This document shows positions 75 through 42,040 of a stretch of DNA of 64,000 nt, in pieces. A program made the translations under genes and the position numbers. Position 1 is the first letter of the stretch. Every line of letters starts with the position of its first letter. Below the pieces are notes generated by a model. That model was not told the origin of the DNA, searched no databases, and saw only the letters and a program-made list of their open reading frames with translations. Location: contig DXAV01000015.1 of assembly GCA_019116805.1 (NCBI GenBank), forward strand, positions 1 through 64,000, given 5' to 3'. Source of the stretch: Candidatus Bacteroides merdavium (lineage in GTDB: Bacteria; Bacteroidota; Bacteroidia; Bacteroidales; Bacteroidaceae).

Positions 75-184
75 GTCTTTTTAGAGGAAAATGTTTCTAT
101 GTTTGAAACATAGGGGGCTTATGTTTGAAACATAGACCCCGAATGTTTGAAACATAAGCCCCTTGGGATTGAAACCCATCTTTT
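75..184. repeat. 22-bp-period degenerate palindromic array (array A)
   Basis: CTATGTTTGAAACATAG at 97, TTATGTTTGAAACATAG at 119 and GAATGTTTGAAACATAA at 141 are spaced exactly 22 bp; degenerate flanking unit at 163. Confidence 0.85.
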
Positions 185-234
185 CACGGCTTCGGGACCA
201 ACGGCCCGAGAAACCACTTATTTGTAAAATTTGT

Positions 235-1608
235 TCATCGATCAACTTCTTCGCCCAACAGCGTGGCCGAGCTGGAGCCGGTTATCCGAACCATTACCCG
301 GTCGCCCACGCGGTGCGTACCACGGTCGAACACCACCACGCGGTTCTGCTCCGTGCGGCCGAAAAGCTGGTCGCGGCTGCGCTTCGACACGCCCTCGACC
401 AGCACCTCATAAGTCTTGCCCACACAACGGGCGTTGGCTTCGGCCGAGAGGCGGTTCTGCAAGGCGATGATTTCGTTCAGACGACGGATTTTCACCTCTT
501 CGGGAATGTCGTCGGGCAGGTGCTTGGAGGCATAGGTACCGGGGCGCTCGCTGTACTTGAACATAAAGGCGGAATCGTAGGCACACTCCTCCATCAGCGA
601 AAGCGACATCTGATGGTCTTCCTCCGTCTCGCTATGAAAACCGCTGAAGATGTCGGTCGAAAGGCCGCAGTCGGGGATGATACGGCGGATGGCGGCCACA
701 CGCTCCAGGTACCACTCGCGGTCGTACTTGCGGTTCATCAGCTTCAGGATGCGGCTGCTGCCACTCTGCACGGGCAGGTGGATGTGGCGGCACACGTTGG
801 GCTCCTCGGCAATGACGTGCAGCGTCTCGTCGCTCATGTCTTTGGGATGCGAGGTGGTGAAGCGGATGCGCATCGAAGGAGCGGCCTGAGCCACCGTGCG
901 CAGCAATGTGGGGAAGGTGATGACTTCGCCGTCGGGCCGCTCGAAGCGGTAGGAGTTGACGTTCTGCCCCAGCAGGGTCACTTCCTTGTAGCCTTTCTGT
1001 TGCAGGTCGGCCACTTCGCGCAGGATGCTCTCCACGTCGCGGCTGCGTTCGCGTCCGCGGGTGTAGGGCACGATGCAGTAGGTGCAGAAGTTGTTGCACC
1101 CGCGCATGATGGACACGAAGCCCGAAATGTGGTTGCCGCAGATGCGCGAGGGGATGACGTCGCGATAGGTTTCCGTCGTCGAAAGCTCCACGTTGATGGC
1201 CTTCTCGCCCGCCTCGACGGAGGCAATCAGTTCGGGCAACGTCAGGTAGGCGTCGGGACCTACGACAAGGTCCACATGATGATGTTCGATGAGGTCGTCC
1301 TTCACACGCTCGGCCATACAGCCCAGGACACCCACAATGAGGTGCGGCCGTTTCTTCTTGAGCGAATGGAAGAACTCCAGCCGGTTCAATATCTTCTGCT
1401 CGGCGTTGTCGCGGATGGAGCAGGTGTTCATGAACACCGCGTCGGCATCGTCCAGCGTCTCGGCCATGCTATACCCTGCCATCTGCATCACAGAGGCAAT
1501 CACTTCACTGTCGGCCACGTTCATCTGGCAGCCGTACGTCTCAATAAACAGTTTCTTTTCACTGTCGGCAGTCGCAGATTTAAAGTCTGCTCCCATCTTT
1601 TTTTCCAT
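235..1608 (-). CDS. miaB: tRNA-2-methylthio-N6-dimethylallyladenosine synthase MiaB
   Basis: KKLFIETYGCQMNVADSEVI N-terminus, radical-SAM motif RGCNNFCTYCIVPYTRG, TRAM-like C-terminus. Confidence 0.95.
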   Translation of the reverse strand: MEKKMGADFKSATADSEKKLFIETYGCQMNVADSEVIASVMQMAGYSMAETLDDADAVFMNTCSIRDNAEQKILNRLEFFHSLKKKRPHLIVGVLGCMAERVKDDLIEHHHVDLVVGPDAYLTLPELIASVEAGEKAINVELSTTETYRDVIPSRICGNHISGFVSIMRGCNNFCTYCIVPYTRGRERSRDVESILREVADLQQKGYKEVTLLGQNVNSYRFERPDGEVITFPTLLRTVAQAAPSMRIRFTTSHPKDMSDETLHVIAEEPNVCRHIHLPVQSGSSRILKLMNRKYDREWYLERVAAIRRIIPDCGLSTDIFSGFHSETEEDHQMSLSLMEECAYDSAFMFKYSERPGTYASKHLPDDIPEEVKIRRLNEIIALQNRLSAEANARCVGKTYEVLVEGVSKRSRDQLFGRTEQNRVVVFDRGTHRVGDRVMVRITGSSSATLLGEEVDR

Positions 1609-1707
1609 ATAAATAAATGTATATTAGTTTATTCGGCTGCAAAGATACGAAAATAGTCGGCATTTCCATTCCTAACTCTCCATCTTACATCTCTATGCTT
1701 TACACCC

Positions 1708-1752
1708 AAGAAAGCATTGGGATCGCAGGAAGAAAACAATGCTTTCATCGCA
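1708..1752. repeat. two-unit remnant of the 22-bp array family (array X)
   Basis: GAAAGCATTG at 1710 and GAAAACAATG at 1732, exactly 22 bp apart; same unit order as the arrays at 9140 and 41824. Confidence 0.6.
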
Positions 1753-3025
1753 ACATCCGACCCTTTTGTCTCCAATAGGCCAAATGTTTCGGACTGCCCA
1801 ACACCTGCGAGGTGTAGATGCCTGTATGACCTGAAAACAGATAGGCCGTGACGCAAGCCACACCCAAGTAGATGCCTGCCTCCGCTCCAAAGAGCTCGAT
1901 GCCCATCAACGTGCAGGCTATTGGGGTATTGGTAGCCCCTGCAAAAACGGCCACAAAGCCCAATCCCGCCAGGAAGGATACAGGTAGAGGCAACAGGGCG
2001 GAAAGCGCGCTGCCCAACGTAGCACCGACAAAGAAGAGCGGCGTCACCTCTCCCCCCTTGAAACCAAATCCGATGGTAAACGTCGTGAGCAACAATTTCA
2101 GCAGGAAATCATACCACATCTGTACCTCAGTGAAGGAAGCCACAATGGTAGGGACACCCAATCCGATGTACTTCGTGGTGCCCAGCATCCACACGCACAA
2201 CGCGATACAGACTCCTCCCAGCAGCGGGCGGAAAGGCGGATAGGCGACACAACGCTTGGCCAACTGCCCCCACAAAACGATGGAGCGGGAGAAAACCGAT
2301 GCCACCAACCCGAATACCAAGCTGGCCAATAAGACCCACAACAATACGACGATATCCAATCCCGGTACCTCCGACATGCAATAAGACGTGTGCGCTATCC
2401 CCCAGGCATGGCAGGCAAAGTGGGCGAAAAAGGCCGAAAGAAAGATGGGGAAGATAGCATCGTAGCGCATACGCCCCACCACAATCACTTCCAATCCGAA
2501 CACGGCACCCGCCAACGGCGTGCCGAAGATGGAGGCGAAGCCGGCACTGATGCCTATCTGCACCATGATTTTGCGGTCGTAAGGATGCATCCTGAACAGG
2601 CGCGACATCCAGTCGGCAATGGCTCCACCCATCTGTACGCCCGTCCCCTCGCGCCCCGCAGAGCCTCCGAACAGATGCGTCAGGACCGTACCCACATACA
2701 CCAGCGGCGCCATCTTGAAAGGGATGATGTTGCGCGAAGAGCGGATCTCCTCTATTAGAAAATTGTTTCCCTTTGCCGCCGTTCCTGCTCAATAATGGTA
2801 CATCAATCCGATGAGCAAGCCGCCCAAAGGCAGGCAGGCAATGATCCACAGATGACTTTCCCTGTAATCGGTCGCCCAATTGAGCGACGCCAACAACAAA
2901 GCAGAGGCAGAGCCTATCAACGCACCTGCCACGGCGGTGATGCAAATCCATTTCAGCAGATACTCCAAGATGGGAAACTGCTCGAAACGGGTCATCCAAA
3001 CATTTCTTCCAGACTTTTCTTTCAT
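1745..3025 (-). pseudogene. ClC-family voltage-gated chloride channel, interrupted by one in-frame TGA
   Basis: ORFs 2789..3025 and 1745..2713 are in the same frame; reading through gives ...GLLIGLMYHY*AGTAAKGNNFLIEEIRSSRNIIPFKMAPLVYVGTVLTHLFGGSAGREGTGVQMGG...; GREG motif present. Confidence 0.8.
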
Positions 3026-3417
3026 ATCCGACCCAATATTACCAAATTTTACAAACAGGAAAGGCTACCAAAAGAATACCTAAGAACAGAGTGTCCGCAA
3101 CAACCGTAGCCATACACTCCTTCTACAGACAACTCGTCAAGGAGGCCCGTCCACAAACAGGAACTATCAGCTACTCAATTAGCGGTTTATAACAGGGAAG
3201 TCCCATTCCCTCCGATTAAATCGGCCGCAAAAATACACGTTTTCCCCGACACGTGCAACAAAAGAAATTCCTGAGTAAAGAAAATGTATTCCATCCTGCT
3301 TCCCTCTAAAAGCCTGACGAATTATTAATAAAACCATAAACCCGCTAATACATGTTATAAAACATAAGATTTCCGCCCGATTATTTGCAGATTTCCCAGA
3401 AGTCCGTACCTTTGCAT

Positions 3418-3484
3418 CGTGTTTTTCATAGTATTAGATTTTAAGGTTAACAAAGGTTGGAGTACAGCGGTACTCCTTTTTTTA
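3418..3484 (+). ncRNA. multicopy small RNA-like unit, copy 1
   Basis: -33 TTTGCAG (3384), -7 TACCTTTG (3407-3414), conserved GTGTTTTTCATAGTATTAGATTTTAAGGTTAACAAAGGTT, terminator GGAGTAC-AGCG-GTACTCC-T7. Confidence 0.8.
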
Positions 3485-3515
3485 TGCCCATACGTCAACA
3501 AGTCTTCCCGCCGGC

Positions 3516-4445
3516 TCATTCTTCTTTCCTGTCCATAACCATCGGCACAGCCGCCTCGCGCCACAACCTTTTCCTGAATCCCAACGGCGTTTCGCCCGCA
3601 TTCCGTCGGAAAAACTTGCAGAAAGCAGATGTGTCGCTGAAATTGAGCCTGACCGCTACATCGCTCACCGCCAGACTGCGGTTGCCCAGCAAAGTACGAG
3701 CCTCCATCAGCAGCAGCTCGCTGATGATGCCGTTCACCGTCTTGCCCGTCCCCGTCCGTACGATGCGCGACAGGTATTGTTCGCTGATAGCCAGCTCGCG
3801 AGCATAGAAAGCCACAAAATGCTCTTCGCGGAAATGGCGGGTGACGAGGGCATAGAATTCCTGCAACACATGCTCCTTGGGACTCAGATGCCGGCGGATG
3901 GGTGTTTTGCGCGAAAGAAAATCTGCCACATCAAGCAAAAGTGCGTTGCAGGCCGCCTGCAGACGTCGAAAAAGGAAATGATGGTCAGAGGTAAGCAAAC
4001 CCATCAACACATCAAGCTGGGCATGCAATACCTCCACCTCACCTGCAGTGAGAGTCAGTGTATATTGCCTGTTCTGTCGCAAAGTAGCCAATAAGAGAGC
4101 AGCCGTCTGTGTCAGATAAGAATCTTTGGTCAGCATTCCTTCCGAAATGGAAAGAGTAATGAAACGGATATCTTTGGAAGAAAACAGATGTTCGGTCAGG
4201 AAGTCCGCACCATGTACCAGCAATGTACCTGCCTCCATCGCCATATATTCCCCGTTGAGCAATATTTCCGAACGTCCTTCCAAAAACAGGATAAGATAAA
4301 GTTCACGGTTGAGATAAGCCTCACCAGAAGGATAATTGCGGTCGTTATATCTGCTTTCGAAACAGACCACGTCTTCCTTGTAATGAGGAATATCAGGACG
4401 TTCTCTCAACATCCCTGCATTGTCGAATATACATGATTTTACCAT
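3516..4445 (-). CDS. AraC-family transcriptional regulator
   Basis: C-terminal double HTH: FYARELAISEQYLSRIVRTGTGKTVNGII...VAVRLNFSDTSAFCKFFRRNAGETPLGFRKR. Confidence 0.9.
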   Translation of the reverse strand: MVKSCIFDNAGMLRERPDIPHYKEDVVCFESRYNDRNYPSGEAYLNRELYLILFLEGRSEILLNGEYMAMEAGTLLVHGADFLTEHLFSSKDIRFITLSISEGMLTKDSYLTQTAALLLATLRQNRQYTLTLTAGEVEVLHAQLDVLMGLLTSDHHFLFRRLQAACNALLLDVADFLSRKTPIRRHLSPKEHVLQEFYALVTRHFREEHFVAFYARELAISEQYLSRIVRTGTGKTVNGIISELLLMEARTLLGNRSLAVSDVAVRLNFSDTSAFCKFFRRNAGETPLGFRKRLWREAAVPMVMDRKEE

Positions 4446-4575
4446 TTCAATCCCCTAATATACCCACAAAAATAATATTTGTTTCGTAATATACAAAAAA
4501 TGAATTGAATTGGATAATCCAATGCAAATAAAAAAGAAGAACTTTGCACCCTGAAAAAGGTAGAAAGATTCGGAT

Positions 4576-5280
4576 ATGAAAAGTTTGTTCAAAAGATATC
4601 TGGTGTTTGTGGCCGGATTGTATTTCCTGGCCGCTGGTGTAGTACTTATCGTACGTTCGGCTTTGGGTACAACACCCATCTCAAGCGTCAACTATGTCAT
4701 GAGTTTGCATACACCGCTTACATTAGGCACTTGCACGTTCCTCATCAACCTGATTCTCATTGCAGGACAATTCTGGTTGGTACGTGGAAACGGACATCGA
4801 CAGGACATTGTCGAAATTCTGCTCCAAATACCCTTTTCATTTGTATTTTCAGCCTTTATCGACTTGAATATGCTCCTTGCTACAGACATACGTCCGGCCA
4901 ACTATACAATGTCTATCGCTCTGTTATTGCTGGGATGCATCATACAATCTGTAGGAGTAGTACTCGAGCTGAAGCCCCGTGTAGCCATGATGAGTGCCGA
5001 AGGATTCGTCAAATATGCTTCCAGCCGCTTTCATCAAGATTTTGGACGTACCAAAGTATGTTTCGACGTTTCACTGGTCATACTGGCTGTATTGCTTTCC
5101 TTATTCTGTGCACAGACCATCGAAGGGGTACGTGAGGGAACTTTGATTGCAGCTGCCATAACGGGATATATCGTCAATTTCCTCAACCATAAAATCATGA
5201 CACGCCATAATCTTTATCGCCTGGTACCCGTGCTAAGACCTGCTACCAACAAGAAACGAGAAACTCTAGAGGCCTGCTAA
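4576..5280 (+). CDS. YczE/YitT-like integral membrane protein
   Basis: Multi-TM protein, VRSALGTTPISSVNYVMSLHTPLTLGT signature. Confidence 0.65.
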   Translation: MKSLFKRYLVFVAGLYFLAAGVVLIVRSALGTTPISSVNYVMSLHTPLTLGTCTFLINLILIAGQFWLVRGNGHRQDIVEILLQIPFSFVFSAFIDLNMLLATDIRPANYTMSIALLLLGCIIQSVGVVLELKPRVAMMSAEGFVKYASSRFHQDFGRTKVCFDVSLVILAVLLSLFCAQTIEGVREGTLIAAAITGYIVNFLNHKIMTRHNLYRLVPVLRPATNKKRETLEAC

Positions 5281-5387
5281 AGACTTTTTTTACTTAACAA
5301 CCGTATGCAAGGCCTAAAATATATTATAAAACAGGCTTTTTTATTTGCATTATTTGCAGATTTCCCTAAAGTTCGTACCTTTGCATT

Positions 5388-5452
5388 GTGTTTTTCATAG
5401 TATTAGATTTTAAGGTTAACAAAGGTTGGAGTACAGCGGTACTCCTTTTTTT
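5388..5452 (+). ncRNA. multicopy small RNA-like unit, copy 2
   Basis: -7 TACCTTTG 5376-5383; same body; same GGAGTAC-AGCG-GTACTCC-T7 terminator (5428-5452). Confidence 0.8.
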
Positions 5453-5580
5453 ATGCCCATACGTTTCCTCTCCATTCTTCCCCTGTCAACAAAATAATTT
5501 TTCCCGGTCAGAAAAAAATCGAAGTCAGCCTGTAACTAATCGGAAACCTCGGACGACCAACTGAACAAAAAGCCGGAAAA

Positions 5581-6066
5581 ATGACAGACAAAAGCAAGGA
5601 AAAAGAATTCACCGACCTGCTGCTGCAACACCAAGCCATTGTTTACAAAGTGTGCCTGCTGTATGCGCAAGACAAGGAAGACCTCGCCGACCTCTACCAG
5701 GAGACGGTGTACAACCTGTGGAAAAGCTACGGGACATTTGAAAACAGAAGCAGTTTCGGCACCTGGGTCTATCGCATCGCGCTGAACACCTGCATCACCG
5801 ACTTGCGCCGCAGAAAACGCCATGAGTACGTACCCCTGAGCCTGACGGATACTGACTTGACGAACGACGACCCGCAGGACGAGATGCTGAACGACCTCTA
5901 CAGCCTCATCCGCCGTCTGAATAAGCTGGACCGCATGTACATCGTCCTCTGGCTGGACGGAAAGACCTACGAAGAGATAGCCGAAATCATCGGTACCAAC
6001 CGCAACCAAGTGGCCGTCAGGCTACACCGCATTAAAGAGAAACTGAAAACCATGTCCAACCTTTAA
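5581..6066 (+). CDS. ECF-type RNA polymerase sigma factor
   Basis: Sigma-70 region 2 (DLYQETVYNLWKSYGTFENRSSFGTWVYRIALNTCI) and region 4 (GKTYEEIAEIIGTNRNQVAVRLHRIKEKL). Confidence 0.92.
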   Translation: MTDKSKEKEFTDLLLQHQAIVYKVCLLYAQDKEDLADLYQETVYNLWKSYGTFENRSSFGTWVYRIALNTCITDLRRRKRHEYVPLSLTDTDLTNDDPQDEMLNDLYSLIRRLNKLDRMYIVLWLDGKTYEEIAEIIGTNRNQVAVRLHRIKEKLKTMSNL

Positions 6067-6078
6067 CTTTACATTATC

Positions 6079-6654
6079 ATGAATCTGGAAGAAATGCAAC
6101 AAGCGTGGAAAGAACTCAACGAACGGGTCGCACGCAACGAAATCCTGCATCGGGAAGAAGTAAAGAGAATCCTGAACACACGCAAGGAGAGCCAATTGGA
6201 GAAACTGATGAGACTGGAGAAAACAGGACTGCTGACCATCGTAGCCTTGTGTCTGTTCTGTATCTATGCCTGGACAACGTTCCCCGGCTACCACCTGCCT
6301 ATCAACATCACAGCAGCCATTCTGCTCGTCGGCAGCCTCGTCTTACAGGCAGGCCGACTACGCCAGCTGACCAGCATGAAGCGGGCAGAAAACCTGGAAA
6401 TGCAAATCCGATACGCTCTGCGCTACAAAGCCGCCTACAACCGCACCTATCTGATTCTCTATCCAATTATCATTCTTTTTGCCATTATGCTCGTCGTCAA
6501 CTTCCACACGCTGTTCAACCGCACCCTCATCCTATTGCTACTGGCCGTCTGCCTCATAGCCGACTATTTCATATTCCACTACACGCACGGCCGGGTGAAG
6601 CAAATGATTGAGGCCAATCGCGAGCTCAAGCAGATAGAAGAGGAAAAGAACTGA
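6079..6654 (+). CDS. membrane protein, putative sigma-factor partner
   Basis: Starts 12 nt after the sigma-factor stop; N-terminal coiled segment and TM helices. Confidence 0.6.
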   Translation: MNLEEMQQAWKELNERVARNEILHREEVKRILNTRKESQLEKLMRLEKTGLLTIVALCLFCIYAWTTFPGYHLPINITAAILLVGSLVLQAGRLRQLTSMKRAENLEMQIRYALRYKAAYNRTYLILYPIIILFAIMLVVNFHTLFNRTLILLLLAVCLIADYFIFHYTHGRVKQMIEANRELKQIEEEKN

Positions 6655-6734
6655 AACAGGAGGAAAGAGCATAGGCAGCGCAGGAGTACTCCTTTTTAGC
6701 CTGTACGAGAACACCCTCCACGTCACACAATTTT

Positions 6735-8204
6735 TCATTCAGCCTTCAGCCGGTCTATCTGGACAGCTGTCTGTGGCCAACTGGGGCGGATGGCCGAACC
6801 GTAGTTCACAATTACCCCCTCCTTATTCACCAACAGGAAGAAAGGTATGCTATCTTGCCCCAGATGCTTGGACATTTTCTGCAAGACATCACGCCCGGCA
6901 AAGTCTTCCCAGTGCAAGCACTCCAACGCCGTTTCCTTGAGTGAAAAACGTTGCAATATCCGTTCGTAATCGGTGCGTTTCCCGCTGACGCAGAGGCTGA
7001 CCATCGCCACGTCGTTCGTACTGTATCGGGCACGCAGCTTCTTCAACGGTTCCATCTCGGCCAGGCAGGGAGGGCAGAATACACCCCAAAAGTCAATGTA
7101 GAGCACCTTGCCCCGATACTTGTCTATCAGCGAACGCAAGGGCGCCATATACTGTTCCGCCTCGGGAGTATCAACATCGCCATGCAACAGGTAACGGGAA
7201 AAGACTTCGGGACGACGCAAATAATCGGCCGTCCGCCGATAAAGCAGGTTCAAAGAGTGGCGGAGTACAGGTACCTGCACCAGCCCATCATATTCCCGAC
7301 GGGCAGAATCCCAAGCCACCGTATCGTTGACTGCCAGTGAGGTACCCAGCAAGTCGGCCAGCAGGAACTGGGCCACCCTTTTTCCCTTCTGTTCATCAAC
7401 CAAATCCTTGCCGGTGAAATCAAGGTCGCCCGCCGCAGCACGCCTATATCTCAAATAAAAAGTCAAATCACGAACCAGGCGGAAATGAGCGGACGTAATA
7501 ATTTTGTCGCCCAGCAACGCGTCCACCTCGGGCATCAACGCCTCGCAGGCAGCCGTTTCCTTCTGCCAGTCCACCTGCTTTTGGTCATAAAGCCTCCTGA
7601 TGCGTTGCTGCGTATAACGGAAACGCTCGGCGTAATAGTCGGCCAGCAACAGACGCTCCGTCAGTTCAGCCACATCACTGATGGGACGGTAACGCTCCAG
7701 AAACTCCTCCCGCTTCTGCTTCCGAAGCGCATATTCCTTCTGCACGGCCTTTTCAAACACCTCTACCGATGAGTTTACATCGTCCATATAAACATAATCC
7801 GGCTGATAGAAACCTCCTTCCGTAAAAGCCAGCATCCCCTGGTTCAAGGCAGCCGAAGTCCCCTCCACTACCGGATGAAGCAAGTCATTAAAATCAATCT
7901 GCAAATAGAGGCTATCGCCCGGCGCCAGATACAGACGGGGCGCATAATTCCGAAGAGAAAACTCGCACACCGCCTCGCAGAGCGGCACGCTAAACGAGAA
8001 GGTGTCGTCCTCCCTGATAGAAGCCTTATACACCGTTTCCTGTTTGGCGTTAAAAGAAACCAGTACCAGCTCCAATTCCTTCTCATTGGGATAAACTCCT
8101 CTATTCAGAATACGGCCCTGCACTACAGCTGTTTCATGACCATCGGCCCAAAGACTGCCAAAGCTGCATAGAAACAGACAGATTACAAAAAACAGATGCT
8201 TCAT
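6735..8204 (-). CDS. TlpA/AhpC-like thioredoxin-fold lipoprotein or secreted protein
   Basis: FWGVFCPPCLAEMEPLKKL motif; signal peptide MKHLFFVICLFLCSFGSLWADG; start trimmed from 8324. Confidence 0.85.
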   Translation of the reverse strand: MKHLFFVICLFLCSFGSLWADGHETAVVQGRILNRGVYPNEKELELVLVSFNAKQETVYKASIREDDTFSFSVPLCEAVCEFSLRNYAPRLYLAPGDSLYLQIDFNDLLHPVVEGTSAALNQGMLAFTEGGFYQPDYVYMDDVNSSVEVFEKAVQKEYALRKQKREEFLERYRPISDVAELTERLLLADYYAERFRYTQQRIRRLYDQKQVDWQKETAACEALMPEVDALLGDKIITSAHFRLVRDLTFYLRYRRAAAGDLDFTGKDLVDEQKGKRVAQFLLADLLGTSLAVNDTVAWDSARREYDGLVQVPVLRHSLNLLYRRTADYLRRPEVFSRYLLHGDVDTPEAEQYMAPLRSLIDKYRGKVLYIDFWGVFCPPCLAEMEPLKKLRARYSTNDVAMVSLCVSGKRTDYERILQRFSLKETALECLHWEDFAGRDVLQKMSKHLGQDSIPFFLLVNKEGVIVNYGSAIRPSWPQTAVQIDRLKAE

Positions 8205-8414
8205 AGACAATTGCATAAATCGTTGGATATAATTATTCGCTGCCATAGCGAGATGCAGCAAATATAAGAAAAACGAATATTTCGGAGATGCAAACAGATG
8301 CTTAAAAGAGAAATTCTTATTCAAATAAATCTGTAAGGATTTTAATACATGTTATAAAATAGCCTGTTTCACCTCCAAAATTTGCAGATTTCCCCAAAGT
8401 CCGTACCTTTGCAA

Positions 8415-8478
8415 TGTGTTTTTCATAGTATTAGATTTAAGGTTAACAAAAGGTTGGGCTCAGCGGAGCCCTTTTTTT
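8415..8478 (+). ncRNA. multicopy small RNA-like unit, copy 3 (variant terminator stem)
   Basis: -33 TTTGCAG 8381, -7 TACCTTTG 8404-8411; terminator GGGCTC-AGCG-GAGCCC-T7 covaries with the other copies. Confidence 0.8.
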
Positions 8479-8515
8479 ATGCTTTATTTCGAACAAATCC
8501 CTAAAACAAAGACCA

Positions 8516-8911
8516 ATGATCAAACAAGACTACCTGATACGCATGATACAGCAGATTGTCTCCATGATTGTGGAAGCCCTGCTGCACAAGAAGAAAATCC
8601 GCCAGAAGGAATGGGAAGACTACGACCACCTGACGCGGCAGATACTGGGGACAGACACCCGCGACCTGCTCAACACCAGTGCCGACGAGCTGACAGCCCG
8701 CTATGCCAGCACACCCGACGGCATGGAGAAGCTTGAGCTGGCCGCCGTCAACATGCTGAAGCTGGCCGAAGAAGTGGACGAGGACAATCCGCTGCTGAAG
8801 TCACGCCTCCGTCAGGAAGGTGTCCAAGTACTGAAATACATCCAGCAGCACAGCGGCAACTATTCGCTCCAGCGCGAATTCCTCATCGGCCTGTTGGAAA
8901 CAAACCATTGA
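8516..8911 (+). CDS. hypothetical protein (DUF6483-like)
   Basis: Intact 131-aa ORF, soluble and helical; MIKQDYLIRMIQQIVSMIVEALLHKK. Confidence 0.7.
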   Translation: MIKQDYLIRMIQQIVSMIVEALLHKKKIRQKEWEDYDHLTRQILGTDTRDLLNTSADELTARYASTPDGMEKLELAAVNMLKLAEEVDEDNPLLKSRLRQEGVQVLKYIQQHSGNYSLQREFLIGLLETNH

Positions 8912-8927
8912 TTTAACCCTCTTACAT

Positions 8928-9295
8928 TTTGACACTTTGCCATCCCAATCGCCTGAGAATCGCGTATTTCGACCCGAAGGAAAGGTCAATGAAAAAGAAT
9001 GAAATGCTGAAGGGGTTTCTTTCTCACTACCAGTACGATATCGAAATCTTTACAAATAATCTGGAAGAAAAACAGGGTAAAATGCCGACTTCACAAGAAG
9101 AGAAAGTCCGAAAAACAGAGATTTCAAAGCCCAAAAGCTGGGAAAGCATTGCTTTTTCCCTCGGAAAACAATGCTTTTGTTGAGGGAAAACATACGATTT
9201 GTCGAGGGAAAACATATAGCTTGACGTGGGAAAACCAACGTTTTACCCTGCTTAAACAAGCATTTCAGCCCGCTCAAGCTTTCTAATTGGTGTGT
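8928..9295 (+). repeat. ~360-bp dispersed element, copy 1, carrying a 22-bp array (array B, 9140-9271)
   Basis: Unit starts at 9140, 9162, 9184, 9206, 9228, 9250; left flank (CGCCTGAGAATCGC...GAAATC.TTACAAA..TCTGGAAGAAAAAC.GGG) is shared with 41680-42040. Confidence 0.85.
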
Positions 9296-9378
9296 TTTCA
9301 AAAAGGGATGTGCAAGCAAAAACAAGGATTTCCCTGCAAAAAGAAAGCTAATGGAAAGGAATAATGACACACCATCCT

Positions 9379-10257: not shown

Positions 10258-10273
10258 CGCCCTCTCTCCTACT

Positions 10274-11233: not shown

Positions 11234-11428
11234 AACTGAATATTTCAATTTCGGGCGCAAAATTACGAGAAAAGTAAGCAACGTATCCCCACAACCCAAT
11301 GTTTTTTATCGGCTTGATGAACAAATCTGAAAATAAACCTGTAAATTTGCAACGGTTTATTAACCGCATTATAAACCGAAACAAGAAGATATAAACACGT
11401 TTTCAATAAATTATTAACAGACATCAGT

Positions 11429-21078: not shown

Positions 21079-21180
21079 GAGGAAACAGTTGTTACCTTTA
21101 TAAGGTAACGGTCGTTTCCTATAATGGTAACGGCTGTTTCCAAATGCTGGAAACGATTGTTTCTATGTATAGGGAACGGA
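21079..21180. repeat. 22-23-bp-period degenerate palindromic array (array D)
   Basis: GGAAACagttGTTACC / GGTAACggtcGTTTCC / GGTAACggctGTTTCC / GGAAACgattGTTTC, spacing 22-23 bp. Confidence 0.8.
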
Positions 21181-28035: not shown

Positions 28036-28126
28036 GGCGGCTTTGTTTTCTGTCAGGACATTGCTTTCTTTGGTGCAAAGCATTGCTTTCTTTGATGGAA
28101 AACATTGCTTCTTTTTCGGGAAGTCA
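28036..28126. repeat. 22-bp-period array related to arrays B and C (array F)
   Basis: GCTTTC at 28063 and 28085, GCTTC at 28106; AAAGCATTGCTTTC and GGAAAACATTGC units. Confidence 0.6.
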
Positions 28127-28231
28127 TTTAATTTGCTTTTCGGCTTCATGGGAGGGAAAATGATAAAAAATCGCCGGCCGCGTATAGTTTTCGGGCCGCA
28201 TTGTGGTCTAACAAGTAAAAACAGCAACGGA

Positions 28232-28714: not shown

Positions 28715-28718
28715 AAGT

Positions 28719-29306: not shown

Positions 29307-29352
29307 TGGTCGATATAGAAATCTTTTCTATGGGATGGTTATGGATCTTCTC

Positions 29353-29517
29353 AAAAAAGAAGAGGATGTATCAAATATAGATAGACTGACTTCCTGTTAT
29401 TTTAGGCACGGATTACGCGGAAAAACGGGGAATATGTATAGATATTAATCCGTGAAATCCGTGTAATCCGTGCCTAAAGAAAGCGAACTCCCATTTTGAT
29501 ACATCTTCTTCTTTTTT
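29353..29517. mobile_element. MITE-like nested inverted repeat (~165 bp)
   Basis: Outer 23-bp arms AAAAAAGAAGAGGATGTATCAAA/TTTGATACATCTTCTTCTTTTTT (1 mismatch); inner arms TTTAGGCACGGATTACGCGGA/TCCGTGTAATCCGTGCCTAAA (1 mismatch). Confidence 0.75.
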
Positions 29518-29536
29518 ATATGCAGAGGTCGTCTGT

Positions 29537-31213: not shown

Positions 31214-31575
31214 TTTCTGTTTAATAGAAATTTATTTTACCTATTGAGTTTGTTGTGATTTCAAAAAAACAGGTTGCAAATTTAGGTAAAATAAAGCAAA
31301 TAGTTGCTATTGCTCCGCTTTTTTTGTGAATATACAGCCGATAGTATCTGTTTTGTGTAGAAGATTGGGGTATTTTTGTGAACTTTAAATGGGTTTCGTT
31401 TGTTTGTTTAATAATCTGGTTAGGAGTGTAAATCATAACTTGCCTCCTGATAGATTTTATTTATGAAGTGATAGAAAAATCCGATAGATAGTTGTGAGAG
31501 GTATTTGAAGTCTTTTTCCTACATTTGCAACATAAGAAATCAACAAGAACAAAATATTAACCCTTTTAAAACTGA

Positions 31576-32160: not shown

Positions 32161-32178
32161 TGCTGAAATAGTTATAAG

Positions 32179-32222
32179 AAAAAAGTGCCAAGAGACTTGT
32201 ATTGGGTTCTTGGCACTTTTTT
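32179..32222. terminator. bidirectional intrinsic terminator
   Basis: AAAAAAGTGCCAAGA ... TCTTGGCACTTTTTT between convergent genes. Confidence 0.9.
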
Positions 32223-32223
32223 C

Positions 32224-34167: not shown

Positions 34168-34288
34168 AATTTATAGGTTAAAAAAAGATTTGCCAGCCAA
34201 TGGGTGGTTTTCATGATATGTTTAAATTTGTTTTTATAAATGAAGGGAATGTTTTTGGCTGATTGCGATTAATGTTTACAATCGGCTG

Positions 34289-35881
34289 TCATTTCTTCTT
34301 TCCGTCGGCCTCGTCGGCATGGTGCGGATAGTCGATGGTGTAGTGCAGGCCGCGGCTCTCCTTGCGCTCCATGGCCTGCTTCGTGATGAGATAGCCCACG
34401 TTGATCATGTTGCGCAGTTCGCACAGCTCGCGCGTGGCCTTGCAGCGCTTGAAGAGGCGTTCGGTCTCCTCGTAGAGGATGTCCAGGCGGTTCCAGGCGC
34501 GGGTGAGGCGCACGTTGCTGCGCACGATGCCCACGTACGACTCCATAATCTGGTTCACCTCCTTCATGCTCTGCGTGATGAGCACGCGTTCCTCGCCCGT
34601 GATGGTACCCTCATCGTTCCATTCGGGGATGTCTTCGTTGAAGTCGTAACGCTCCAGCACGCTCAGGGCATGCTTGGCAGCCGCGTCGGCATAGACCACG
34701 GCTTCGATGAGCGAGTTCGAGGCCAGGCGGTTGCCACCGTGCAGGCCCGTGCACGAACATTCACCGATGGCGTAGAGGCGGCGGATGCTGCTCTGCCCGT
34801 CGAGGTCCACCTTGATGCCTCCGCAGAGGTAGTGGGCGGCGGGCGCTACGGGGATGTAGTCCTTCGTGATGTCAATGCCGATGCTGAGGCACTTCTGGTA
34901 GATGTTGGGGAAGTGGCGCTTCGTCTCTTCCGGGTCCTTGTGGGTAACGTCCAGATAGACGTGGTCCTCGCCGCGGAGCTTCATCTCGTTGTCGATGGCG
35001 CGGGCCACGATGTCGCGCGGGGCGAGCGACAGGCGCGGGTCATACTTCTGCATGAACTCCTTGCCGTCCATCGTGCGGAGCACGCCGCCGTAGCCGCGCA
35101 TGGCCTCGGTGATGAGGAACGAGGGGCGGTCGCCCGGATGGTAGAGGGCCGTGGGGTGGAACTGGATGAACTCCATGTCCTTCACCGCTCCCTTGGCGCG
35201 ATAGACCATGGCGATACCGTCGCCCGTGGCCACCAGCGGGTTGGTGGTGTGGCGGTAAACGGCCTCACAACCTCCCGTAGCCATGACGGTGATTTTGGAG
35301 AGGAAGGTGTCCACCTCGCCCGTGGCTTCGTTCAGCACATAGGCGCCATAGCACTTGATGCCCGGCGTGTAGCGCGTCACGATGATGCCCAGATGATGCT
35401 GCGTGATGATTTCCACCGCATAGTGGTCGGTGAATATGCTGATGTTGGGATGCCGCTTCACGGCTTCGATGAGCGAAGTCTGTATCTCGGCTCCCGTGTT
35501 GTCCTTGTGGTGCAGGATGCGGAACTCCGAGTGCCCGCCTTCCTTGTGCAGGTCGAAGGTTCCGTCTTCCTTCTTGTCGAAGTTCACCCCCCAGTTGATG
35601 AGCTCCTTGATCTGTTCGGGTGCGTTGCGCACCACCTTCTCCACGGCGGCGCGGTCGCTGATCCAGTCGCCCGCTATCATGGTGTCTTCGATGTGCTTGT
35701 CGAAGTTGTCCACGGCCAGATTGGTCACCGAGGCGATACCTCCCTGTGCAAAATACGTGTTGGCCTCTTCCATTCCGGCCTTACAGATGAGGGCTACCGT
35801 CCCCTTTTCCGCCACTTTCAGGGCGAAGCTCATACCGGCTATTCCAGAGCCGATGACGAGGAAATCGAACTTTCTTACCAT
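34289..35881 (-). CDS. nadB: L-aspartate oxidase
   Basis: FLVIGSGIAGMSFALKVAEKG; HKEGGHSEFRILHHKD; FIQFHPTALYHPG; start trimmed to MVRKFDF. Confidence 0.95.
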   Translation of the reverse strand: MVRKFDFLVIGSGIAGMSFALKVAEKGTVALICKAGMEEANTYFAQGGIASVTNLAVDNFDKHIEDTMIAGDWISDRAAVEKVVRNAPEQIKELINWGVNFDKKEDGTFDLHKEGGHSEFRILHHKDNTGAEIQTSLIEAVKRHPNISIFTDHYAVEIITQHHLGIIVTRYTPGIKCYGAYVLNEATGEVDTFLSKITVMATGGCEAVYRHTTNPLVATGDGIAMVYRAKGAVKDMEFIQFHPTALYHPGDRPSFLITEAMRGYGGVLRTMDGKEFMQKYDPRLSLAPRDIVARAIDNEMKLRGEDHVYLDVTHKDPEETKRHFPNIYQKCLSIGIDITKDYIPVAPAAHYLCGGIKVDLDGQSSIRRLYAIGECSCTGLHGGNRLASNSLIEAVVYADAAAKHALSVLERYDFNEDIPEWNDEGTITGEERVLITQSMKEVNQIMESYVGIVRSNVRLTRAWNRLDILYEETERLFKRCKATRELCELRNMINVGYLITKQAMERKESRGLHYTIDYPHHADEADGKKK

Positions 35882-35980
35882 AGTAGTATATATTAGCAAT
35901 TGCAAATCTACAAAATAAGTGCGTTGTTTGTGCGCTTTGCCGCCGAAAATCCATACCTTTACCGCAAAAAAGGAGAAACG

Positions 35981-36385
35981 ATGGACAGAGTATTCCATGC
36001 CCGTGTGGGTGCGGCCCGTTATCTGGCGCTGCTTATGTTTACGTTCATGCTGGTTTATTGCCTGTGGGTGAAGTACATCTTGATAGCTGTGCTATGGGGT
36101 ATCCTGTTGCTCCATTTCATCGAAAAGATCATTCATACCACCTATACGCTGACTGCCGACGGGCGGCTGTTCGTTTACGAAGGCCGTTTCTCACGCCGTC
36201 GTGAGCGCTCGCTGGCCGAGGTGGTGTCGGTGGAGCGCCGTTCGTCCATGCAGGTGGCGGGCCGTGCGCTGGTGCGCTATGTGCTGGTAGTCTATAAAGA
36301 TGGCAGGCACGATGCTCTCCAGCCCGTCAACGAAGAAGAATTCATACGTGCGTTGGAGAAGAGGAAGCGGGAGATGGCTTCCTGA
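35981..36385 (+). CDS. small PH-domain-like membrane protein
   Basis: Two TM helices then beta-rich YTLTADGRLFVYEGRFSRRRERSLAEVVSVERR. Confidence 0.6.
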   Translation: MDRVFHARVGAARYLALLMFTFMLVYCLWVKYILIAVLWGILLLHFIEKIIHTTYTLTADGRLFVYEGRFSRRRERSLAEVVSVERRSSMQVAGRALVRYVLVVYKDGRHDALQPVNEEEFIRALEKRKREMAS

Positions 36386-36503
36386 CACGGTGCTTCCTGA
36401 CCTCCTGACACAGTGCTTTCTCAGGGTGTCAGGAAGTGCTTTCTTAGGAGGTGACGAAGCACTGCGTGAGACCCTCAGGAAGCACTTCGTCAGAAAGCCC
36501 CGC
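36381..36503. repeat. 23-bp-period degenerate palindromic array (array E)
   Basis: TGC/CAC core landmarks at 391, 414, 437, 460 and 483 (+36000), exactly 23 bp apart; CCTGACAC/GTGTCAGG and GAAGTGC/GCACTTC dyads. Confidence 0.8.
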
Positions 36504-36597
36504 CGGCTTCATTTCATAAAGAGTTTTAATTTGTGCCTTTTGTCGAGCAGTTTTTTTACAGTCCGTACGTCTATTTTTTAAAACAAGTCATACGGAT

Positions 36598-37341
36598 ATG
36601 AATTTGAATTGTGCCATTTTGCATGCTGATGGAGAGGTTGTACGTAGGTTGGAGGAATATATCGGCAAGGTGCCATTTCTGTCCTTACGCGGTACGTATG
36701 ACAATCCGCTCGAAGCATTGAAAGATTATTATGAAGTGAAGGTCGAAGTCTATTTCATCGGTATCTGTGCCGCCGAGGAAGGCGGGATAGGGGGAATGGA
36801 CTTCAGCCGGATGTTGTCTTTGCCCACCCGTGTCATCTTTGTGGCCGACACTGACCGCTATGCCGCCGAGTGTTTCCGCCTCGACGCGCTTGATTACCTG
36901 ACGGGTTGTTTCGACTTTTCGGTCTTTTTCCAGTCGGTCAGCAAGGCGGCCCGTTGGTTTACCCTCCAGTCGGAACCCTCGGCAGGAAGTGGAAAGAAGC
37001 CGGTAACCGACGCACCGCAAGTGCTTTATGTGAGGTCCGACAGCCGCATCGTGAGGCTGACGTTCAAGGAAATCCGCTACATCGAGGCCTTGGGCGATTA
37101 TGTAAAGATTTACACGCAGACGGATGCAAGGGCTATCATGAGTCTCTGTAGCATGAAGTGTATGGAGGAGCGGCTTCCGGAGGGTGAATTCATCCGTGTG
37201 CACCGTTCTTTCATCGTGCGCAAGAGTTATATCGACACCATCGGTTCCAATACTGTTGTGGTGGGAGGTAAGGAGATTCCCATTGGCAACGCCTATCGTG
37301 AACAGGTGAAACGTTATGTGGCAAGGCTCTCTGTCCTGTAG
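36598..37341 (+). CDS. LytTR-family response regulator
   Basis: REC-like N-terminus and LytTR: LYVRSDSRIVRLTFKEIRYIEALGDYVKIYT...FIRVHRSFIVRKSYID. Confidence 0.9.
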   Translation: MNLNCAILHADGEVVRRLEEYIGKVPFLSLRGTYDNPLEALKDYYEVKVEVYFIGICAAEEGGIGGMDFSRMLSLPTRVIFVADTDRYAAECFRLDALDYLTGCFDFSVFFQSVSKAARWFTLQSEPSAGSGKKPVTDAPQVLYVRSDSRIVRLTFKEIRYIEALGDYVKIYTQTDARAIMSLCSMKCMEERLPEGEFIRVHRSFIVRKSYIDTIGSNTVVVGGKEIPIGNAYREQVKRYVARLSVL

Positions 37342-37358
37342 CCTGTCTTTTCCGTATC

Positions 37359-38570
37359 TTATTTTATTTTGGTCCTGATTATCCTTTCTTCGAATGTCAG
37401 GTTCAGGTTCAGGCTGAAGCGGCTTTCTTGCATCAGATTGTCGCGCAGATTGACTTGCTGGCGCCAGGTAGCTCCCAGCGACAGGAATGAATAGCGCACG
37501 GGAAAACTGACTCCGATGTTGCCCTCCAGATAGTACATCTTTCCTCCTTTCAAGTTGATATATGAATTGCTGATACCGATGCCTGCCATCAGTTCGGTAG
37601 AGCGCGGTTTCCGTGGTTCGGTGAGGTAGATGGTGCCGACATTCAGCTTATGTTGGTTTTCGTATTTCATTGAGGTATAGGCCGACGTGTTGCGACTCCA
37701 GTCCACATAGTTGTAGTCCATTGTGACAGTCCAGTGTTCGCTGCTGGTGGTCAGTCCGGCACCGATGTGCATGGGCAGGTACTGCGTACGGCTGTGGTAA
37801 CTTTTGTCCATATCCTCACTGGTTGACGAGTTGGAGTAGGTCAGGCGGTTGTCGTGCCCTATCTTCAGCGAGGGGGCAAACACTGCTCCCACTTCCCAGC
37901 TTCTACCCGGGCCGCCGAAACGGTAGTGCAGGCCGAAGTCTGTATAAAACGCCCGCTTGGACGATTCGTAGCTGACTGTGGCGTTCTCCTGCGTTTCGCT
38001 CTGCGTCACTGTTCCCAGTATCATGCCCAGGTTGATGCCTATCGAGAGGTGTCGTGTCAGGGCGAAGGCATTGGTCACGTAGCATCGGTAGAGCCCACCC
38101 GTGCCCTCGAAGGTCGAGTAGAGATACTCGCCCGGCATACCTTCCACTTCTTCTTCGGTCTGGATGAGATAACCCACACTGCTGTAGGGTGCGGCGCCTA
38201 TCAGGGCGTACCAGCGGGGCAGGACGCGGAAGCCCAAGCTCAGGCGGTTGGGGTTTCCCGTCAGGTTCGAGCTGTGGTCACTCAGGAAGGAGTAGCGGGC
38301 ATAGGATGCCGACAGTCCGATGTTGAAAGTAAAGCAGGCGGTATCCATGGCTGTGATGGCGGCGGGGTTCAGGGTATTCTGGAAGCCGGGTCGGTTCAAG
38401 GCAATGCCTATGTTGCCCAAGCCGGCGTAGCGTCCGCCATCGGCAGAACACAGTTCACCTACGCCGTACATGGATGTGGGCAGGTTGGTGGTGTTTTGCG
38501 CCAGAAGGTTCAGATGGGGTAACAGGCAGGCAAAAAGCCATAGGGTCATTCGGATGTGGTTATGTTTCAT
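37359..38570 (-). CDS. outer-membrane beta-barrel protein, PorV/FadL-like
   Basis: Signal peptide, GLGNIGIALNRPGFQNTLNPAAITAMD, barrel-like C-terminus. Confidence 0.65.
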   Translation of the reverse strand: MKHNHIRMTLWLFACLLPHLNLLAQNTTNLPTSMYGVGELCSADGGRYAGLGNIGIALNRPGFQNTLNPAAITAMDTACFTFNIGLSASYARYSFLSDHSSNLTGNPNRLSLGFRVLPRWYALIGAAPYSSVGYLIQTEEEVEGMPGEYLYSTFEGTGGLYRCYVTNAFALTRHLSIGINLGMILGTVTQSETQENATVSYESSKRAFYTDFGLHYRFGGPGRSWEVGAVFAPSLKIGHDNRLTYSNSSTSEDMDKSYHSRTQYLPMHIGAGLTTSSEHWTVTMDYNYVDWSRNTSAYTSMKYENQHKLNVGTIYLTEPRKPRSTELMAGIGISNSYINLKGGKMYYLEGNIGVSFPVRYSFLSLGATWRQQVNLRDNLMQESRFSLNLNLTFEERIIRTKIK

Positions 38571-39883
38571 TGTTCGTTGTATATTTTGAGTCTTACATCA
38601 AGTCGGCACTGTCGGTCTTGGCCGGGAAGGGCGGTGAAGACCACCTGATTGAAGGTAGTGGCCATTTCTTCATCGGTCAGGCTCATGAGGAGTTTTTGTC
38701 GGCGGGTGCCTGAGGTGCCGAAGTTGTTGCGGATGAACTCGGTCAGGTCAAAGCTGTAGTAGGTTTCGCGTCCATACATCTCATCAATGGTCAGGTTACC
38801 GGTTTGCACCGTTACTCCATCGCTGCCATAGACATAGTCTTCAAGTACGTTGTTCTCGTCGGTGATGTAGATGCGCACTTCTTCGGGCAGCTGGCTCACT
38901 TCATTGTAGCTTCGGGCCAGCGGGTAGAGGTAGAGCGTGGCGCTCTCTACGGACACGATTTCTCCCTTGCTTTGCAGTTCGTTGAGATCGGGGAATTCAA
39001 TCTGGTTGTAATAGCCCGTCAGTCCTTGCAGGTAGGCACGGTTACCCATGCTGCTGGCGTGTATCAGGTTCTCGATGCCGCTCTGGAGGTTGTCGAGTGC
39101 GGTACCTGTCGGGTTGTGACGTACGCCCGTATAAGCATATTCGGTGTTGACACTGAAGATCAGCTCGCTTTCGGTGGTTTGGTTGGAGATGTCGCGGTAG
39201 TGGAGGTTGAGGGTCATCGAAGAGTCGTTCACCAGAAAACCGGTGATACAGCTGCCGCTTGTTTCTGCTACGAGAGCCAGGCCAGGGAAGACCTTCTTGA
39301 AGCTTTCCTGCGTATCAAGATAAGTGTCCTCAACCAGAATGTCAGTGAGGAGTTGTCGGCCCATGGCGTCGGGCAGGCGCACCTCCACTTCGCGCTGGCG
39401 GCCGGGCTGGGGCAGGTAACTGAAGCGGGTCAGGGGTACGTCCTCCGTGGCCATGACGGTGGTGTTGTACAGGTCTTCGTCGTTGTCCAGCACGATGGGT
39501 TGCTTCAGGCGATAGACGGAGATGTATTGGGGGGTCAGAGTGTCGCCCCAATAGTGGCCGCTGGGCGTCATGCTCAGTACGAGCGAGTCGAACTGGTAGT
39601 CGTGGCCGTCGGTGGTGCTGAAGGTGTTCTTCGTAAATTCGGCATAGTAGGTGGCCGTCACTTCGCCCCAAAGGGTGTCGGCGTAGTGACCGAAATGGCC
39701 GATGGTATCCTCGCGCGTCTCAATGGAGTCCAGCAGGATGGTACTCAGATCTACGGTACAACTATTGGTGAAGACATTGTAGAACGAACTTTCCACCAGG
39801 CTGCTACCCAAACTCGAATTGTTGTCCTGGCAGGCATAGCAGGCGAGGAGGCCTGCCAGCAGGCTATACAGTATTTTTCTCAT
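38567..39883 (-). CDS. DUF4270 domain-containing lipoprotein
   Basis: Lipobox LLACYACQD; DLSTILLDSIETREDTIGHFGHYADTLWG; 4-nt overlap with the downstream gene. Confidence 0.8.
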   Translation of the reverse strand: MRKILYSLLAGLLACYACQDNNSSLGSSLVESSFYNVFTNSCTVDLSTILLDSIETREDTIGHFGHYADTLWGEVTATYYAEFTKNTFSTTDGHDYQFDSLVLSMTPSGHYWGDTLTPQYISVYRLKQPIVLDNDEDLYNTTVMATEDVPLTRFSYLPQPGRQREVEVRLPDAMGRQLLTDILVEDTYLDTQESFKKVFPGLALVAETSGSCITGFLVNDSSMTLNLHYRDISNQTTESELIFSVNTEYAYTGVRHNPTGTALDNLQSGIENLIHASSMGNRAYLQGLTGYYNQIEFPDLNELQSKGEIVSVESATLYLYPLARSYNEVSQLPEEVRIYITDENNVLEDYVYGSDGVTVQTGNLTIDEMYGRETYYSFDLTEFIRNNFGTSGTRRQKLLMSLTDEEMATTFNQVVFTALPGQDRQCRLDVRLKIYNEQ

Positions 39884-40109
39884 GACGCTTGGTTTTTCTA
39901 TTTTTCCGCAAAGGAAAGGGAAAAGCCGGGTATGTTCCTATCAAAATCGGCGGTTGGGACGTTTTTGCCGTTGAATGCTTTCGGCAGCCCCTGAAAGTGC
40001 GTTTGTCGGATATTGGGCGCTGTTGGTCGGTTCTTTTTGCATACATCCGTCTCGTGACCTATTTTCGCCCCGAATAACGACGGAAAAACAGTTATCAAAC
40101 ACTTTTAGT

Positions 40110-41183
40110 ATGTATATGAATCGATTATTATTGGGAATGATGCTGCCGCTGGTTCTCCTGGCTGGCAGCAGCTGTACGGACGATGACGAGTACACGCAAG
40201 GACAATGGATCAAGCGTTCGGGCTTCGAGGCCGAGCCGCGCGCCTATGCCTGCAGCTTTACCATCGGAGAAAAGGGATACCTGTGCGGAGGTTTCCGCGG
40301 AGCGAACAAGGAATATATGAACGACCTCTGGGTATATGACATGAACAACAACAACTGGGAACAGCTGGCCGACATGCCGACTGCGGGTCGCAAGTATGCC
40401 ACGGCCTTCGCTCTGAACGGCAAGGGATATGTGACTACGGGCTCTGTGAAAGACGGCAGCTACTCGAACTATGTGGCCGACACGTGGGAGTACGACCCCT
40501 CGTCGGACGCATGGACGCAGAAGGACGACTTCAAGGGCGGTCCGCGCGACGGAGCCTTGTCTTTCGTCGTGGGCGGTTATGCCTACGTGGGTACGGGCTA
40601 TAACGAAGATACGCAGGGCAGCTACAAGGACTTCTATCGCTTTGACCCCAATGCGGCGGCCGGCTCGCAATGGACCAAGGATGCGGGCAATGGCGGTGGT
40701 CCCGAAAAGCGGGCTTACGGCACGGCTTTCGTCATCAATGATGTGGCCTACGTATGTTGTGGTACAGACAATAGTACCAGCTTGAGCGACTTCTGGAAGT
40801 TCGACGGCTCGACGTGGACGCAGCTGCGCGATATTGCCAACACCAACGACGACGAAGATTATGACGACGACTACAACATTGTCCGCTACAGCACGGTGTC
40901 GTTCGTCATCGACGGCTATGCCTACATTGCCACCGGCTATCGGAGCGGTGTGACAGCCGACTATTGGAAGTACGACCCCGACCAGGACCTGTGGTATGGT
41001 GACTCGGACGACGACTTTACACCGCTGACCGATGTGCACAACAACTACTCGGGTGCCTCTTCGCGCGATGGGGCGGTGTCTTTCTCCAACGGCGAGCGGG
41101 GTTTCGTCCTGACCGGACAGTCGGGCGGAAGCTATTTCGACGATGTTTATGAACTGCTCCCCGACGAACAGGAAGAAGTGTGA
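40110..41183 (+). CDS. Kelch-repeat lipoprotein
   Basis: Repeated NDLWVYDMNNNNWEQLADMPTAGRKYATAFALNGKGYV units; lipobox LLAGSSC. Confidence 0.9.
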   Translation: MYMNRLLLGMMLPLVLLAGSSCTDDDEYTQGQWIKRSGFEAEPRAYACSFTIGEKGYLCGGFRGANKEYMNDLWVYDMNNNNWEQLADMPTAGRKYATAFALNGKGYVTTGSVKDGSYSNYVADTWEYDPSSDAWTQKDDFKGGPRDGALSFVVGGYAYVGTGYNEDTQGSYKDFYRFDPNAAAGSQWTKDAGNGGGPEKRAYGTAFVINDVAYVCCGTDNSTSLSDFWKFDGSTWTQLRDIANTNDDEDYDDDYNIVRYSTVSFVIDGYAYIATGYRSGVTADYWKYDPDQDLWYGDSDDDFTPLTDVHNNYSGASSRDGAVSFSNGERGFVLTGQSGGSYFDDVYELLPDEQEEV

Positions 41184-41217
41184 TTTCATCCACTGGATAC
41201 AAGGTATAAATTAGGTT

Positions 41218-41547
41218 ATGAATAAAGTTTGGTGGATAATTAGGACAGGCGTGCTGCTCTTCGTGGCGGTATGCCTGTCCGTTTGTCGGGGCGGCACGTC
41301 GTCCGACAGGCAGAGTGTGTGGAAATGCAGGTTGCTGGAGGTGGAGGGTGGCTATGGCTACGCTATCCTGCGCGGCCACGACACGCTGATACGCCAGTCG
41401 TGCATCCCCGCCATCGGTGAGCGGAAGCCTTTCGCCACGCGCGAGGATGCCCTGAAGATAGGGCATATCGTTCGCGACAGGCTGGAGGCGGGCCAGTCGC
41501 CCACGGTGGGTTGCAAGGAGGTGCGGCAGATTTTGGGCGATGACTGA
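41218..41547 (+). CDS. DUF4907-like protein
   Basis: GYGYAILRGHDTLIRQSCIPAIGERKPFATREDALKIGHIVRDRLEAGQSPTV. Confidence 0.75.
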   Translation: MNKVWWIIRTGVLLFVAVCLSVCRGGTSSDRQSVWKCRLLEVEGGYGYAILRGHDTLIRQSCIPAIGERKPFATREDALKIGHIVRDRLEAGQSPTVGCKEVRQILGDD

Positions 41548-41679
41548 ACGCATCTTTCCGCCATGAATCACCGTGTCATGTTTTCCGCTCTCCGGCAGGC
41601 AGAATGTCGGCAAAAGCGGCTTTGGGCTGACAGCACCTTTCTTCAAGCCGTGCAAACGGGAGGGGAAAACAGGGTGCCG

Positions 41680-42040
41680 GCAGCCTTTTTTGATGGGAAA
41701 ACGTACGTTTAAGCGGGGCAAAGCGTCGGTTTTCCCACATCAGAACGCAGGTTTTCCCTCGCCAAACCATATGTTTTCCCTCGACAAAAGCATTGTTTTC
41801 CGAGGGCAAAGGCAATGCTTTCCCTGCTTTCGGGCATCGGGGCTTCTGTTTTCGGGCTTCCGAAGCCTTGAAGGATGGCTTTTTGCCCCGTTTTTCTTCC
41901 AGAATTTTTGTAAGGATTTCGCTATCGGCTTGTCGATGAGCAGGTAAGCCCTTCTGCGCTCCGTTCTTTTCCATCGGCCTTGCCTTCGGGCTGAAACAAG
42001 CGATTCTCAGGCGGTCGGCGTGTCAAAGTGTCAATTTGTC
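41680..42040 (-). repeat. ~360-bp dispersed element, copy 2, carrying a 22-bp array (array C, 41693-41824)
   Basis: TTTTCCC unit ends at 41736, 41758, 41780, 41802, 41824; same unit order as array B in reverse orientation; shared left flank. Confidence 0.85.

Follow-up and report, generated by a model that had tools for sequence, protein, structure and literature searches.

Intergenic DNA in this genome carries dispersed arrays of short palindromic units set at a pitch of 22 or 23 bp, and the period is shared across the order Bacteroidales while the unit sequence is shared by clade. Thus, the period is kept and the sequence is not, between lineages rather than between loci. The window is a 64-kb stretch (bases 1-64000 of contig C66) of a 2.94-Mb metagenome-assembled genome, G000, which is 85.6% complete. 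Its genus was sampled as 25 genomes, namely G000 and 24 relatives, and the nearest named loci belong to Bacteroides and Mediterranea.

Arrays of the window and their period in the order

Autocorrelation over lags 12-79 at a stringent cut-off returned arrays A, B, D, E and C as the sole tandem signals in the window, all at lag 22 or 23, in agreement with the spacing given by the initial annotation. A further array, X, is weaker and is visible by TRF and by eye. The initial annotation had counted seven arrays (A, X, B, D, F, E, C), of which these six were recovered, whereas array F was not found by looser scans or by reading several intergenic gaps at 24.4-32.3 kb. All six are intergenic:

86..179 (about): array A, a family I member with ATGTTTSAAACAT cores every 22 bp in a 4-unit plan, with the variant last core GGGATTGAAACCC
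9137..9250: array B, GGGAAAAC-type units every 22 bp
21080..21175 (about): array X, family V-like GGAAACG..CGTTTCC units with a weak period of 22
28040..28135: array D, CATTGCTTTCTTTG-type units every 22 bp
36374..36492: array E, a family II member with AGTGCT/AGCACT cores every 23 bp
41702..41836: array C, pitch 22, an inverted paralogous copy of B

A distance of about 56 bp separates the end of array A from the stop codon of a RimO/MiaB-type gene (235-1608, minus strand). Array A is kept one-to-one in the sister species G007 (99% identity in one window protein), as is array D, which lies between divergent genes for a TraB/GumN family protein and an ECF sigma factor. Array X is missing from the orthologous gap of G007, and array E lies upstream of a LytTR-domain gene (36598-37341, plus strand). 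Array B and its leader (about 8929-9136) make up one copy of a ~330-bp dispersed element; the leader recurs next to array C (about 41837-42042), and C represents the same element as an inverted paralogue of B. The idea that each array has its own unit therefore fails, since B and C are paralogous, the units of D are CATTGC-related to them, and A and E belong to families with many loci. Elsewhere in the window, a fluoride riboswitch (RF01734; 3151-3219, minus strand) is located upstream of a CLC-type channel gene (1745-2713, minus strand), the usual fluoride-exporter arrangement. Positions 29405-29480 hold an inverted CACGGATTACGCGG / AATCCGTGTAATCCGTG motif accompanied by a 9-bp tandem, and a similar GGCACGGATTGCGCGG stretch stands beside a family II array in both G000 and G007.

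The G000 sample amounts to 1.31 Mb, or 45% of the genome (the window and the first 20 kb of each of contigs C1-C81 without C66). Classified by fundamental period, its arrays have a period of 22 (50 arrays), 23 (13) or 21 (5); heptamers account for 11 more and every other period for at most 3, and Markov-shuffled sequence gave zero matches at 37/60 identity. The genome-wide excess of a 22/23-bp period expected from the initial annotation is thus present, and the shuffles and the period spectrum rule out chance or low complexity. The same periods recur in 0.88 Mb of G007 (22 in 30 arrays, 23 in 10, 21 in 3) and, heptamer repeats aside, in 1.44 Mb from 80 named Bacteroidales loci, all drawn with one RimO/MiaB query (22 in 27, 21 in 9, 23 in 6). 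Order-level sampling was confined to Bacteroidales, and a small out-group control, 50 kb of E. coli K-12, contained no arrays. Heptamer tandem arrays (e.g. TGAAGAG) are a separate feature, common in Prevotella/Bacteroidales loci (L117, L116, L106, L124, L095 and others), and produce spurious signal at lags 14, 21 and 28.

Unit families and constraint on cores and spacing

About 8-10 dispersed families account for the 63 arrays, apart from ten left unassigned. Each family has its own period, 23 for family II and 22 for nearly all others. The families, defined from the same arrays on which the tests below were then run, are typified by the following units:

Family I: ATGTTTSAAACAT, with 9-bp linkers
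Family II: AGCACT core, pitch 23
Family III: TTTAAGCTGGGNAAA
Family IV: TAAACT..CAGTTTA
Family V: GGAAACG..CGTTTCC
Family VI: AAGATG.CATCTT
Families VII and B/C: CATTGC/GGGAAAAC types
Family S: TTCAGGT

An array typically consists of 4-6 sites of 13-18 bp each, and dyad symmetry reaches p<0.05 against column-permuted units in 50 of the 63. Copies of families I and II are dispersed, have unrelated flanks and are confined to 3 of the 25 same-genus genomes. By exact pattern search, family I occurs at 23 places in G000, 15 in G007 and 2 in G024, and is missing from the remaining 22 genomes of the genus and from all 16 same-order genomes; family II is spread in the same way, save for a single match in G010 that looks like chance. 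The 17 family I copies examined all follow the 4-unit plan, in which the last core is a variant. Family II arrays comprise 5 (15 arrays), 6 (6), 4 (4) or 3 (1) units, i.e. 5±1 in 25 of 26, and display an overall dyad, with all minus-oriented cores before the plus-oriented ones in 19 of 26 where random orientation would give 5.2.

Within the 105 family II units, invariant positions are placed in mirror image (A at -4 in 103, T at +9 in 102) with freely varying positions between them. Covariation from arm to arm is absent from these units (|z| at most 1.2 in informative columns; offset 4, with z=6.7, is uninformative because its A-T pair is almost invariant) and also across two units, and it is weak in family I (p=0.06). 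For cores separated by 12-34 bp, the spacing is 22 in 22/22 cases for family I and 13/13 for family VII, and 23 in 79/87 for family II. Linkers are near saturation, yet the pitch is exact in families I and II. Between G000 and G007, background intergenic DNA shows 59 indels per 717 substitutions (0.082 per substitution), and we estimate, assuming a star phylogeny of units, that about one third of the linkers would have lost pitch without selection. Spacing appears to be under purifying selection. Together with the recurrence of the period across Bacteroidales with unrelated units, this exact spacing upholds the constraint on geometry that had been suggested at the outset. The ortholog test of cores against linkers rests on seven family I/II arrays, from a comparison that took in one G007 contig: 16/322 core positions (5.0%) have changed against 32/262 linker positions (12.2%; p=0.002), and 435/4568 positions in the flanks. 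The smaller change in cores speaks for selection acting at the present sites of the arrays.

The other process put forward initially, replication or repair making locus-specific arrays, finds no support in the units themselves. Non-core identity in family II is 0.587 both within and between arrays (z=0), and families I, IV and VII show no significant difference, on which locus-specific slippage arrays were rejected; homogenised units within arrays are limited to III, V and B/C. Phased curvature or gyrase-like wrapping was likewise rejected, as there is no 11-bp A/T autocorrelation.

Gene ends and rearrangement breakpoints

With genes called by a simple codon-bias script, 62 of the 63 arrays are intergenic. 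Convergent gaps are enriched among those that bear arrays (12 vs 5.8 expected) and divergent ones depleted (6 vs 13.4), while in co-directional gaps 26 of 30 arrays are nearer the upstream stop, at a median of 90 bp. The named relatives show the same 3' trend (11/16), which is not significant. Terminator-like hairpins were found at 26/49 array-bearing gene ends vs 100/260 elsewhere, and are thus called as frequent, or not rarer, near arrays; the hairpin stands only before the array at 11 gene ends and only after it at 9. These frequencies and positions indicate that the arrays are not mere substitutes for terminators, and many of them should lie outside the transcript of the upstream gene.

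Besides, arrays appear to mark rearrangement breakpoints. Relative to G007, an inner inversion (about 9150-41800 of the window) ends at arrays B and C, and an outer one nested around it (about 5400-63350) ends near FopS copies. Synteny is broken at 10/16 informative array sites vs 21/63 array-free gaps (p=0.045). Flanks that are both present but separated occur at 3/9 array sites vs 0/42 (p=0.004), and both comparisons rest on small numbers. The two sister species also differ by one missing array (X) and by exactly one 23-bp unit in a family II array, an instance of the unit gain or loss that the initial annotation had suggested looking for. A 5.2-kb stretch (36400-41613; LytTR regulator, DUF4270 protein and Kelch protein) is missing at the corresponding place of G007, and one of its junctions falls inside array E. 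The FopS paralogous sRNA family (RF04319) is present in four copies (3419-3486, 5388-5455 and 8416-8481, plus strand; 63357-63424, minus strand). Inverted copies lie near the endpoints of the outer inversion, and FopS genes may therefore also seed rearrangements.

Known repeat systems, an operator-like reading and its rivals

Like the arrays, REP/BIME elements (PMC3733652, PMC2817692) are short palindromic units, dispersed and intergenic, with several families per genome; they sit close to the 3' ends of genes and in convergent gaps and are often clustered in opposite orientations. The arrays have the placement of REPs, being intergenic, between convergent or co-directional genes and near 3' ends, but they differ by their strict 22/23-bp tandem lattice, their fixed unit number and the lack of arm covariation. 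The REP tetranucleotide GTAG or CGTC was in phase in at least 60% of units in 0/63 arrays. RAYT, the Y1 transposase expected for GTAG REPs (PF01797), had no match in G000, in 99%-complete G007 and G024 or in array-bearing G003, G017, G021 and G022. With neither transposase nor tags, RAYT-driven REPs were rejected, and the arrays cannot be filed under REPs.

BrickBuilt, a minisatellite-MITE of Porphyromonas gingivalis, is made of imperfect 23-nt tandem repeats without spacers at about 20 intergenic loci; it forms one species-specific family with a leader, a tail, IS5-like TIRs and up to 22.8 units, and units are gained and lost between strains (PMC4596501). It comes from the same order, is likewise intergenic with imperfect spacerless tandem units, and its 23-nt pitch matches family II. 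Judged by its description, BrickBuilt differs from the arrays, which form many families, mostly have 3-6 units and keep a pitch common to the order. Its TIR GAGACCTTTGCA has 5 matches in the window at up to 2 mismatches where 5.9 are expected by chance, none of them at arrays, and a BrickBuilt MITE was rejected on this count. The BrickBuilt authors also point to direct repeats of 22, 23 and 41 nt that had been reported before in P. gingivalis (PMC4596501). The initial label of an undescribed system is therefore largely right, with BrickBuilt and the 22/23-nt direct repeats as partial precedents; no description of an order-wide 22-bp rule was found in the open literature, most subscription journals being outside the search.

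CRISPR loci also consist of direct repeats in which conserved cores alternate with less conserved stretches. However, the linkers here measure 5-10 bp against spacers of about 30 bp, the contiguous units have degenerate cores and occupy dozens of loci, and Cas1 (PF01867) had no match in G000 or G007, so that a CRISPR remnant is ruled out, as first stated. B-type DNA had no match in phages or plasmids, E-type DNA none in plasmids and family I none in viral contigs. A family II-like pattern occurs in 12 viral contigs, of which only L247 carries a clear 23-bp array (616-818, near-perfect GTTAAGCAGTGCTTCAAGCAAAC tandem with a family II core at period 23). In view of the missing B-, E- and family I-type matches, and as L247 has no evident relation, a phage, plasmid or virus origin was rejected.

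We propose, at about even confidence, that the arrays are operator-like lattices of dyad sites for a predicted DNA-binding protein, with a boundary role between genes. The mirror-image constraint without covariation, the exact pitch of about two turns, the few fixed sites and the placement at gene ends, often beyond terminators, all point to this reading. Operator arrays likewise combine dyad-symmetric, base-specific constraint with fixed spacing. In phage lambda, OR and OL each contain several pseudo-palindromic sites of ~17-18 bp at a 23-24-bp pitch, where cI dimers bind cooperatively. The arrays resemble them in having several pseudo-palindromic sites at a similar pitch, and differ in lying near gene 3' ends at dozens of loci and not at one promoter; their sites are candidates and their repressor putative. 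From the observed period, dyads, families, 3' placement and constraint on cores and spacing, we infer the existence and nature of a cognate protein, its cooperativity and a boundary function. Dimers of this sequence-specific protein would bind adjacent sites cooperatively. At the DNA level, the complex may then form a boundary between neighbouring genes, by insulation or by handling supercoils between converging transcription; this is the part of the proposal held with least certainty. The families would be bound by proteins that differ or have diverged, with sequence turning over between lineages while the geometry stays. Some observations count against the proposal. The pitch of 22-23 bp approximates two helical turns, but 22 and 23 cannot both be exactly two turns and the data do not require strict same-face phasing. 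Moreover, B and C share a leader and look duplicated, as a mobile element would also give, and the units of III, V and B/C are homogenised within arrays.

It seems to us rather unlikely that the arrays are selfish REP/BIME- or MITE-like non-autonomous mobile repeats, whose lattice would provide subterminal transposase-binding sites and for which gene 3' ends would be the least harmful insertion points. Dispersed families with unrelated flanks, the full-element copies B and C with their common leader, the absence of X in G007 and the inverted site orientation across family II arrays, reminiscent of two transposon ends, all speak for it, together with the BrickBuilt precedent (PMC4596501) and the placement shared with REPs (PMC3733652). 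Against this stand the lack of Y1 transposase and in-phase tags and the chance-level TIR; neither target duplication nor an empty site was demonstrated, and, unlike in decaying copies, cores at their present sites have diverged less than linkers since the two species separated. Mobile origin and function may both be true, the arrays having been dispersed once and then kept for function.

RNA-level elements, i.e. arrays that would be part of 3' UTRs or small RNAs and form hairpin chains (terminators, stabilisers or protein sponges), are unlikely. The 3' placement and a strong predicted folding (median z of -3.9 vs -0.6 in control gaps) would suit them, and so would two compensatory-looking changes in orthologous arrays between G000 and G007, which fit a structural role and in that respect also count against an operator. 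Nonetheless, the larger set does not back these two changes, as covariation is absent or weak in families II and I. A terminator-like hairpin often precedes the array, the dyad-symmetric sites have no evident strand preference, and no window array reached an Rfam gathering score (B and E had only sub-threshold chance matches). The fixed RNA hairpin pitch initially envisaged is thus disfavoured, and an RNA hairpin array was rejected on the covariation tests. It is very unlikely that the arrays are functionless minisatellites born of replication slippage or template switching, with the 22-bp period as a mutational bias. The single 23-bp unit by which one array differs in the two sister species, the nearly identical units of certain other species and the homogenised III, V and B/C units are what this would give, but equal identity within and between arrays, fixed unit numbers and base-specific constraint with exact spacing are not, and no known cause of slippage accounts for a sharp 22-bp mode over unrelated units.

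Dispersed palindromic repeats are well studied in Proteobacteria and little described in Bacteroidales, the dominant gut order. Here, a spacing rule outlasts its sequence, and purifying selection is measurable on cores and pitch. Extending the operator-like reading, the arrays might represent an order-wide, undescribed class of Bacteroidales elements, two-turn nucleoprotein lattices whose sites are replaced by lineage as they co-evolve with fast-diversifying DNA-binding proteins, a tentative and still doubtful generalisation. If the cognate protein exists, its pull-down with family I or II DNA should be easy and would bring to light a factor that organises gene ends generally in these bacteria.
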